This document shows, piece by piece, positions 34,321 to 37,077 of a stretch of DNA of 64,000 bases (its first letter is position 1; each line of letters opens with the position of its first letter). Below the pieces are notes generated by a model. It saw only the letters and a program-made list of their open reading frames with translations, ran no database searches and had not been told where the DNA came from. Location: the NCBI RefSeq assembly GCF_007990635.1, contig NZ_AP019846.1:1364001-1428000 (forward strand), given 5' to 3'. The stretch is from Leptotrichia hongkongensis (lineage in GTDB: Bacteria > Fusobacteriota > Fusobacteriia > Fusobacteriales > Leptotrichiaceae). Made by a program: the position numbers and the translations under genes.

Positions 34321-34776
34321 TTAACTTTTTTTTAATTTATTTGTAATTTCTTCTATTGTTGAAGCAGTTTTTAATTCTTCTACTAATTCTTCCTCATAAG
34401 ATAATTTTGAAATCTCCGCCAATAAATCTAAATGTTCTTTTTTTGTTTCTTCTGGAGCCGCAATCATAAAAATTAATTTTGAAGGTTCTCCATCCATACT
34501 TTCAAAATCTACTCCTTCATGAGAAATTCCTAGAGCAAGGGAAAGTTCTTTTACAAGTGGTGTTCTGGCATGCGGAATAGCTATTCCGTCTTGCATTCCA
34601 GTTGGTGTCAATTTTTCTCTTTCATTTATTTCCTTTACAAATTCTTCCAGGTCTTCTGGCTTAAGAACTTCACTTTTCACAAATAATTGTGCCATTTCCT
34701 TAATAATTTCTTCCTTTGTTTTACCTTCTAAATTTACTTTTATTCTTTCTGGTACCAAATATTCTAATATTTTCAT
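34321..34776 (-). CDS. PTS EIIA component, fructose/nitrogen type (PtsN-like)
   Basis: A 151-residue single-domain EIIA (PTS_EIIA_2 fold). The phospho-accepting histidine stands in GIAIPHARTPLV (His about 70), the standard motif of the fructose/mannitol/Ntr class. No EIIB or EIIC lies nearby. A stand-alone EIIA beside miaA and obg favours a regulatory PtsN-like role over sugar uptake. Last gene of a run of genes on the minus strand, 34 bp behind miaA. No strong terminator is visible behind it. Confidence 0.87.
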   Translation of the reverse strand: MKILEYLVPERIKVNLEGKTKEEIIKEMAQLFVKSEVLKPEDLEEFVKEINEREKLTPTGMQDGIAIPHARTPLVKELSLALGISHEGVDFESMDGEPSKLIFMIAAPEETKKEHLDLLAEISKLSYEEELVEELKTASTIEEITNKLKKS

Positions 34777-34810: not shown

Positions 34811-35728
34811 CTAAAATTTTTCCCATTTTTTCAAAATATCATCTAGCACTTGCTTTTCAGACATTTCTGATAAATTATAAGTAATATAGTTTTTTTCTTT
34901 TTTGAACCATGTCATCTGTCTTTTTGCATATCTTCTGCTCTCCATTTTTATTTCATCAATCGCTTCATCCAGCGTGATTTTCCCTTCAAAATATTTAAAT
35001 AGTTCCTTATATCCGATTGAAGATATTTTATAAAGACTTTCTGTATATTTATTATATACTTTTTTTGCTTCTTCTACAAGTCCTTTTGCAATCATAATTT
35101 CAACTCTTTTATTAATCCGTTCATAAAGTTCTTCTCTATTTCTAGTAAGAAATATCTTTAAGAACTCATAATTATTATTTCTTATATTTTGTATACGTAG
35201 CTCACTAAATTTTCCGCCGGTCAAAATACAAACTTCAATTGCTCTAACCAATCTCAATTTATTAGACAAATCAATTTCATTATACGATTTTTCGTCCATT
35301 TCTTTGAGAATTTTCTGTAACTCCTCAATACTTTTGCTTTCCAAATCAGCTCTGATTTTTGCATTTTTTGATGGCAGTTTTGCAAATCCATCTGTAATTG
35401 ATTTTATATAAAGTCCTGTTCCGCCTGTAATAATAATATTTTTCTCATTTTTTTCACCATTTTCATTCAAAATATTATTTACAGTTTTTTCAAAATCTCC
35501 CACAGAATAGTCTTCATCAGGGTTTATAACATCAATCATATAATGCTGTATTCCCTGCATTTCATCACTTGTTATCTTAGCTGTTCCTATATCCAGCTCC
35601 TTATAAATCTGAGAAGCATCTGCTGATATAATTGCTGAATCTATCTTTTTAGCAAGCTTTATCGATAAGTCTGTTTTTCCTACTCCAGTTGCACCTGCGA
35701 TTACAATTCCTTTTTTCCTTACTGCTAT
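34811..35728 (-). CDS. miaA: tRNA dimethylallyltransferase MiaA, probable AUA start
   Basis: The enzyme adds dimethylallyl to A37 of tRNAs reading U-initial codons. The open frame contains the P-loop GIVIAGATGVGKTDLS, SADASQIYKELDIGTAKIT, GGTGLYIKSI and AKRQMTWFKKE, all MiaA hallmarks. The first canonical start is the ATG at 35560, which would delete the P-loop and the substrate-binding SADASQ. Upstream in frame there is no ATG, GTG or TTG before the stop. GGGAGG (35742-35737) lies eight bases before an ATA codon at 35728-35726. Initiation there yields 305 residues, the family length, beginning (I)AVRKKGIVIAG. AUA initiation is rare. A sequencing error or mutation of ATG is the alternative. 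Confidence 0.85.
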   Translation of the reverse strand: MAVRKKGIVIAGATGVGKTDLSIKLAKKIDSAIISADASQIYKELDIGTAKITSDEMQGIQHYMIDVINPDEDYSVGDFEKTVNNILNENGEKNEKNIIITGGTGLYIKSITDGFAKLPSKNAKIRADLESKSIEELQKILKEMDEKSYNEIDLSNKLRLVRAIEVCILTGGKFSELRIQNIRNNNYEFLKIFLTRNREELYERINKRVEIMIAKGLVEEAKKVYNKYTESLYKISSIGYKELFKYFEGKITLDEAIDEIKMESRRYAKRQMTWFKKEKNYITYNLSEMSEKQVLDDILKKWEKF

Positions 35729-35793
35729 CTTCTTTACCTCCCATTATAAGTAAACCACATCTTTACTGAAAATCTTTTAAAAAAAATTTATTA

Positions 35794-37077
35794 CTAAACT
35801 ATATATTCAAATTCATACCCAGCAATAATTATAATATCTCCTTCTTCAACCCCAGCTTTTTCAAGCTCTGTTTCCATTCCAAGACTTCTCATCTTCTGAA
35901 GGAAATTTATTATTCCTTCTTCTCCAATAAACACATACTTTTTAAGCACATCATCCACAATACGTCCATCTACTTCAAATACATTGTCAGATGTTTTCTT
36001 AACAATCCAGTCATCTTTTTTATTATTTTCCTGAATCAGCTCTTCAACAGAATGAACTTCTTCCAGTTCTTCCCTAGGTATTTCCTGAATTAATTCCCAT
36101 GCCTTTGATAAAACCGGCTTTAGTCCCTCATTTGCAATTACAGAGACTGGGTAAACATATCTTATACCTTTTTCTTTAACAAATTTTTCAAATTCATCAT
36201 ATTTTTCATCTTCATAAAGCATGTCAATCTTATTAGCCACAACAATTTGAGGTTTATTTGCCAATTTTTCACTGTAATTTTTTAATTCGTGATTTATTTT
36301 TACAAAATCTTCCTTAGGATCACGTCCATCTAATCCTGAAATATCCACAATGTGAATAATCAATTTACATCTTTCAATATGCTTTAGGAATCTATCCCCA
36401 AGCCCTACTCCTTCATGAGCTCCTTCAATAAGACCTGGCACATCCGCCACAACAAAACTTTCCTCATCTCCCATTCTTACAACTCCCAATTTAGGCTTTA
36501 ATGTAGTAAAATGGTAACTTGCAACTTTTGATTTGGCAGCTGATACTTTATTAATAAAACTTGATTTTCCTACGCTTGGATAACCCACAAGAGCCACATC
36601 AGCCAGCAATTTTAATTCCAGCTTTATTTTTAATTCTACACCTTCACGACCACTTTCTGCTATTCTTGGAGCTTTTTTTACTGATGACTTGAAATGGATA
36701 TTTCCACGTCCGCCATCTCCACCTTTTAGAAATATTACTTTTTCATTTGGATTGTCCAAGTCAAGCAGCAGTTTATTTGTTTCAAAATCTCTAATCATTG
36801 TTCCAACTGGAACTTTTATAATCAAGTCTTCACCTGATTTTCCAGTAGAACGTGCAGCAGCCCCTTTTGTTCCGTCTTGTGCCTTAAATTTTTTACTGCT
36901 CTTAAAATCTACAAGCGTGTTAATATTTGGATCAGCGATAAAGACGATATCTCCACCTTTTCCGCCATCTCCACCGTCAGGCCCTCCAAACTGAACAAAT
37001 TTTTCACGTCTGAACGTAGCTGCTCCATCTCCTCCATTTCCAGAAATTACTGTAATTACACTTTCATCTATAAACAT
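35794..37077 (-). CDS. obg: Obg/CgtA ribosome-associated GTPase
   Basis: The 427-residue protein has the glycine-rich Obg fold first (GGDGAATFRREKF, GGPDGGDGGKGGDIVF). The GTPase domain follows with G1 GYPSVGKSS, G3 DVPGLIEGAHEG and G4 NKID. A C-terminal OCT domain ends the protein (about 340-427, IINFLQKMRSLGMETELEKAGVEEGD). It is an essential GTPase in 50S assembly and stringent control. Normal length. It lies 65 bp upstream of miaA and 59 bp downstream of the nuclease gene on the same strand. Confidence 0.96.
   Translation of the reverse strand: MFIDESVITVISGNGGDGAATFRREKFVQFGGPDGGDGGKGGDIVFIADPNINTLVDFKSSKKFKAQDGTKGAAARSTGKSGEDLIIKVPVGTMIRDFETNKLLLDLDNPNEKVIFLKGGDGGRGNIHFKSSVKKAPRIAESGREGVELKIKLELKLLADVALVGYPSVGKSSFINKVSAAKSKVASYHFTTLKPKLGVVRMGDEESFVVADVPGLIEGAHEGVGLGDRFLKHIERCKLIIHIVDISGLDGRDPKEDFVKINHELKNYSEKLANKPQIVVANKIDMLYEDEKYDEFEKFVKEKGIRYVYPVSVIANEGLKPVLSKAWELIQEIPREELEEVHSVEELIQENNKKDDWIVKKTSDNVFEVDGRIVDDVLKKYVFIGEEGIINFLQKMRSLGMETELEKAGVEEGDIIIIAGYEFEYIV

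Follow-up and report, generated by a model that had tools for sequence, protein, structure and literature searches.

The miaA locus

The window analysed here, a stretch of 64,000 nucleotides from the chromosome of Leptotrichia hongkongensis (NZ_AP019846.1, positions 1,364,001 to 1,428,000), carries on its minus strand a miaA gene for the tRNA A37 dimethylallyltransferase. It lies between obg upstream (35794-37077, minus strand; Pfam GTP1_OBG) and the gene for a PTS EIIA type 2 protein downstream (34321-34776, minus strand; Pfam PTS_EIIA_2). The miaA frame is closed upstream by an in-frame TAA (35744-35746) and runs on for 310 open codons beyond it (35743-34811), giving a match of 269.5 bits to Pfam IPPT when read from the stop. 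As a previous sequence-only reading had stated for the range 35558-35742, which proved right, there is no ATG, GTG or TTG between this TAA and an internal ATG at 35558-35560. A start at that ATG would lose 56 residues, and the translation places both the P-loop GATGVGKT (35672-35695) and the SADASQ motif (35609-35626), which pairs with SGDSMQ of 2qgn, on its 5' side; hence the P-loop and the substrate motif are part of the product only if translation begins upstream of the ATG. A Shine-Dalgarno sequence, GGGAGG (35737-35742), precedes by 8 nt an ATA at 35726-35728, as that reading had also described; the 3' end of the 16S rRNA, GGATCACCTCCTTT, is found in three places of the genome. This ATA is the putative start codon, from which miaA would extend over 34811-35728 and encode 305 residues.

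The ATA-started product reaches 270.5 bits against TIGR00174 (cut-off 148.65), from profile position 2 to 281 of 288, and thus clears the curated threshold along the full profile; it aligns with the solved MiaA 2qgn/3exa such that residue 4 of the query faces residue 2 of the chain. The family match alone is not decisive for the start, since the shorter product of 249 residues initiated at ATG 35560 also passes the cut-off, with 192.4 bits and a match that begins at profile position 51. Along the 45 codons between the P-loop and the first ATG, compared in pairs with the present genome (G000), dN/dS is approximately 0.04-0.16 in seven of eight pairs (dS could not be computed for the pair with G006), and it is approximately 0.04-0.15 after the ATG. 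Values of dN and dS against G000 are, for instance, 0.093 and 1.38 (G011), 0.061 and 1.59 (G012), and 0.111 and 0.91 (G010). Such low ratios 5' of the first ATG indicate that the region is selected as protein and, therefore, that the gene is alive.

Start codons of miaA in Leptotrichia and Flavobacteriaceae

The miaA gene is present in all 13 Leptotrichia genomes of our sample, and its start was read in each of them. Six have ATA 7-8 nt past GGAGG (G000, G004, G011, G012, G006 and G001), four have ATG about 15 nt past GGAGG (G010, G008, G002 and G003) and three have GTG (G005, G007 and G009). Locus L014 comes from Leptotrichia sp. oral taxon 879 F0557, the nearest relative with a name (98% protein identity); it shows the same gene as L002 of G004, and the two were counted once. 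Before the P-loop, G000, G004 and G011 contain no ATG, GTG or TTG, and the sole canonical codon of G012 is a GTG three codons ahead of the P-loop. G006 and G001 each have a single canonical codon there, at which they could in principle start: in G006 it is a GTG, 20 nt past GGAGG, and in G001 a TTG at a distance of 25 nt. The codons 3' of the ATA vary and bear indels, and the ATA and its spacing from the Shine-Dalgarno sequence are constant. In the present genome miaA has no usable canonical codon at the gene start, as expected of a near-cognate start, and conservation at Shine-Dalgarno spacing extends to 6 of the 13 genomes, the other seven having ATG or GTG.

The sequence-only reading had proposed an alignment with relatives as a check. 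This now finds ATA in the nearest relative and four more distant ones, with ATG (four species) or GTG (three) in the rest, and consequently strengthens the case for an AUA start, the more so as three of the six genomes lack any canonical codon before the P-loop. The alternative offered in the same reading, a mutated gene yielding a fragment devoid of the P-loop, finds no support in the comparison, because relatives have the same ATA and dN/dS is about as low 5' of the first ATG as 3' of it. Among 30 loci read in the whole family, the P-loop pattern failed in three, and the other 14 outside Leptotrichia all have ATG, GTG or TTG before the P-loop. A tree built from 18 miaA genes requires at least two changes when ATA is set against all other codons and at least three when three states are considered. 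The four species with ATG and the three with GTG show that the weak codon is dispensable. In the ATG clade the long spacing may represent another route to the same low output, on the evidence of one event, and the persistence of ATA elsewhere could partly reflect the AT-rich genome.

Our survey covered, besides Leptotrichiaceae, 79 other loci, mostly from Bacteroidota, and one family in depth. According to the alignment, 73 of the 79 have a canonical start, and six lack any canonical codon at least 10 codons before the P-loop lysine: those of three Hyunsoonleella, Mangrovimonas aestuarii, an Algicola MAG and a Mediterranea MAG. The Mediterranea gene (L026) has no ATG, GTG or TTG before the P-loop and an ATC near the expected start, a single case in which an assembly fault is possible.

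The family examined in depth is that of Flavobacteriaceae, represented by 159 genomes spread evenly over it; 157 have miaA, of which 150 were read and seven weak matches left out. In the interval of 10-24 codons before the P-loop lysine, 119 of the 150 genes have ATG (in three of these the frame extends beyond the fetched stretch) and 14 have GTG or TTG. The remaining 17 are without a near canonical start, comprising 13 with none at all and four with only a farther one, 25-35 codons out. Codon -18 is ATA, ATT or ATC in 14 of these 17 genes; in the 12 columns around it (-24 to -12) such a codon fills 12 of 188 cells. All 17 have such an ATH codon within -18 to -21, with L261, L267 and L048 having it at -20 or -21. 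When the canonical codon nearest the P-loop is assumed to be the start in genes that have one, column -18 serves as start in 30 genes, with ATG in 10, ATA in eight, TTG in five, ATT in three, ATC in three and GTG in one; L399, with TTG at -18, has an additional ATG at -21. The majority of the ATG genes of the family start at -15 or -16.

Two other genes with an N-terminal P-loop served as controls. For gmk, 30 of 30 genes are canonical (29 of 30 genomes, with 5 of the 30 having an AUH miaA, i.e. one starting with AUA, AUU or AUC), and the same is true for 30 of 30 coaE genes, 29 with ATG and one with GTG, in 30 genomes of which 20 have an AUH miaA; the coaE count excludes nine weaker second CoaE matches. 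In evolutionary terms, a rapidly built tree of 94 rows requires at least 14 changes between AUH and other codons, but 48 of its 91 inner branches are open, and we do not rely on independent gains.

The infC parallel and the supply of MiaA

To our knowledge, few natural genes start at AUA, AUU or AUC. The rarity of such starts in the present genome was estimated from the window plus 400 kb of the same chromosome (20 stretches), altogether 464 kb with 407 dominant ORFs of at least 100 residues, after removal of positions that lay close to, or downstream of, a canonical start preceded by a Shine-Dalgarno sequence. The scan flagged 19 positions, among which miaA is, by eye, the only clear AUH gene start, together with one CTG candidate. 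The other positions lie mostly inside genes or behind another start, and a flagged ATA at L174:19384 resembles an antisense frame. The CTG candidate (L189:18758-19615; G000:C1, about 2208758) concerns a secreted-looking protein (LKRNKYKLLILASITAFSIISFG...), without NCBIfam match, in which CTG follows AAGGAG and the first ATG, GTG or TTG comes 28 codons past the CTG.

The gene for IF3, infC, which lies outside the scanned sample and is the textbook case of a near-cognate start, offers the closest parallel. In all 13 Leptotrichia genomes (L117-L129), TAGGAGGTG is followed after 6 nt by ATA; the alternatives are a GTG that lies three codons upstream of the ATA, inside the Shine-Dalgarno sequence, and an ATG 11 codons past the ATA, present in 11 of 13 genomes. 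Gene callers limited to ATG, GTG and TTG are consequently forced to the GTG within the Shine-Dalgarno sequence or, in those 11 genomes, to the later ATG. In Flavobacteriaceae, infC begins with ATA-GCN in 30 of 30 genomes (L340-L369). In 27 of these the stretch that was read contains no canonical codon; the remaining three have one about 30 codons into the gene. The infC gene of Escherichia coli starts with AUU. A special initiator tRNA for AUA was considered and rejected, for no UAU anticodon occurs among the 46 tRNA genes of the genome, which include three with anticodon CAU.

As start codons, AUA, AUU and AUC form a near-cognate match with the initiator anticodon and are discriminated against by IF3. 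We therefore consider, with a probability of about 0.75, that miaA has a genuine, recurrent AUH start which keeps MiaA low and which is probably discriminated by IF3 as in the case of infC. According to this explanation, a working miaA would be translated from the AUA at 35728-35726, positioned by the strong Shine-Dalgarno sequence, and the ordinary fMet-tRNA with anticodon CAU would initiate there with a mismatch at the third position. Such a mismatch should render initiation inefficient and hold MiaA low, and a weak start behind a strong Shine-Dalgarno sequence should supply the enzyme at a low level that depends on IF3. The start is kept among relatives, and some of the Flavobacteriaceae show it again as AUA, AUU or AUC. 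Discrimination by IF3, probable by analogy with the AUA start of infC in the same genomes, would tie the supply of MiaA to the balance between IF3 and 30S subunits. The sequences themselves establish the codon and its conservation, the lack of other start codons in this genome, selection on the N-terminal part, the recurrence and the behaviour of the controls; from them we infer initiation at AUA, low output, sensitivity to IF3 and selection for low MiaA, the IF3-sensitive low output following from the class of the codon. The gene is neither a sequencing artefact nor dead; more probably it is intact and its expression kept low. The proposal of the sequence-only reading that a weak start keeps MiaA low is plausible.

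This explanation has to be weighed against other accounts of the AUA. The codon could be a real start without regulatory meaning, if the strong Shine-Dalgarno sequence gives enough enzyme and the weak codon simply drifts in and out, a possibility that we regard as doubtful yet serious. It would agree with the variation of the start codon among Leptotrichia clades and the mixture of ATG, TTG, GTG and ATH in Flavobacteriaceae, as well as with a possible need for MiaA in small amounts only. However, it sits uneasily with the recurrence in two phyla, given that gmk and coaE are canonical in all 30 genes each, and with the retention of ATA between species at dS near 1; moreover, the ATG of Leptotrichia comes with a Shine-Dalgarno spacing of about 15 nt as if to compensate, although this point derives from a single event. 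A single-codon oddity in one assembly might suggest an error of sequencing, or a mutation that has recently inactivated the gene and left only the fragment from ATG 35560, but this is most improbable: purifying selection acts 5' of that ATG and the identical ATA occurs in assemblies of other species, including Leptotrichia sp. oral taxon 879 F0557, a conservation that refutes the idea for the group. It is equally hard to credit that ribosomes shift frame from a mini-ORF into miaA, or that A-to-I editing, which is known for bacterial mRNA, makes the AUA read as AUG. A short ATG frame does overlap the Shine-Dalgarno sequence, but no obvious slippery site was seen by eye, and we have discarded the frameshift from an upstream mini-ORF because G001 and G010 do not share the arrangement; as to editing, the ATT and ATC of Flavobacteriaceae are not convertible to AUG by A-to-I changes.

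The preferred reading, a genuine AUH start of low output, finds its nearest known counterpart in infC, another translation gene of these genomes in which AUA follows a strong Shine-Dalgarno sequence with a similar spacing. The two differ in that the product of infC, IF3, discriminates its own start directly, whereas we know of no role of MiaA in start selection. Initiation of infC at AUA has been detected by profiling in Staphylococcus aureus (PMC13009471). The same paper gives reporters of ccpN (AUA), citZ (AUA) and cvfC1 (AUU) at about 10% of AUG in S. aureus, with ccpN rising up to 30% of AUG in rich medium. The AUA of ccpN resembles that of miaA also in being conserved between genera, S. 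aureus and B. subtilis, with an extended Shine-Dalgarno sequence (PMC13009471); it differs in gene and function, and in that its output of about 10-30% of AUG comes from reporters whereas miaA is known here from sequence. Dosage of MiaA is tuned after transcription in E. coli, too: miaA is adjusted post-transcriptionally via CsrA/CsrB (PMC12249760) and in response to stress (PMC9303304), and in strain UTI89 both lack and excess of MiaA raise frameshifting and cause harm, the excess being harmful under stress (PMC9303304). These controls operate by mechanisms other than that suggested for Leptotrichia, and the excerpts of both papers mention no unusual start codon (PMC12249760; PMC9303304).

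In the open-licence PMC literature we found no paper, by title or abstract opening, dealing with a near-cognate start of miaA. A second translation gene repeatedly having AUH starts in unrelated bacteria suggests selection for a low or IF3-gated level of MiaA, and the miaA start provides a ready test of the tie between tRNA modification and initiation capacity. In practical terms, a gene caller restricted to ATG, GTG and TTG will, in these genomes, call miaA too short or not at all.

A conserved 15-mer upstream of miaA

Upstream of the start lies a conserved 15-mer, TGTGGTTTACTTATA (35745-35759, minus strand), which occurs in exact form once per genome in 6 of the 13 Leptotrichia, always 5' of miaA, with no occurrence of the reversed control in any genome. 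A version with three degenerate positions, TGTSGTYTAYTTATA, is found once per genome in 10 of 13, again always 5' of miaA (reversed control 0-2 a genome), and is absent from G005, G007 and G009. The exact 15-mer being single in every genome that carries it, we have rejected a dispersed promoter motif. The A preceding it completes an ATG, giving the reading AUG UGG UUU ACU UA(U) and, in the present genome, a possible mini-ORF ATG TGG TTT ACT TAT AAT GGG AGG TAA (35734-35760, minus strand) with its stop 5 nt before the ATA.

Since the tRNAs that MiaA modifies read UNN codons, a feedback leader can be imagined: poor i6A modification would slow the ribosome on the mini-ORF (MWFTYNGR) and alter initiation at the AUA 5 nt past its stop. 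We consider such a leader rather improbable, even if the TG-UGG-UUU-ACU-UA of the 15-mer stands 5' of miaA once per genome, exactly in 6 and degenerately in 10 of 13 genomes, and the eight UNN-reading tRNA species, all with A36-A37-A38, are candidate substrates of MiaA. The three substitutions all fall at second codon positions, with U kept first in codons 2 and 3, but three substitutions are little proof. The mini-ORF is, furthermore, without a Shine-Dalgarno sequence of its own, in G001 its motif is separated from the Shine-Dalgarno sequence by about 100 nt, three species lack the motif, and the fold of the leader RNA in this genome is no better than in shuffled sequences (z of 0.60 and 0.14). 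The same bases also hold a TATAAT (35748-35743), which could make the 15-mer a promoter of miaA, likewise an unlikely possibility. A scan gives TTTTCA-18-TATAAT on the miaA strand, with 10 of 12 matching bases, and a promoter would account for the displaced motif in G001; yet four promoter-like sites were found against 2.3 expected in shuffles, other species have TATAGC or TATAGT as final bases and no common -35 was seen among them. A promoter at this TATAAT would, besides, place the mRNA start near or inside the Shine-Dalgarno sequence, and the transcript of this genome would then drop that conserved element.

Combined with the parallel of infC, these elements allow a bolder and less probable reading: miaA would stand beside infC as a recurrent AUH-start gene in at least two phyla, by which the capacity for tRNA hypermodification would be wired to the availability of IF3 and 30S subunits, and in Leptotrichia a mini-ORF of UNN codons sensing i6A may add a feedback loop on MiaA.

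The organisation of the upstream region is different in G001. There, the 15-mer is found at locus L007 within an ATG frame of 21 codons, seven of them UNN, between obg and miaA, and inverted repeats (AACTCATA / TATGAGTT) lie between the 15-mer and the Shine-Dalgarno sequence about 100 nt downstream.
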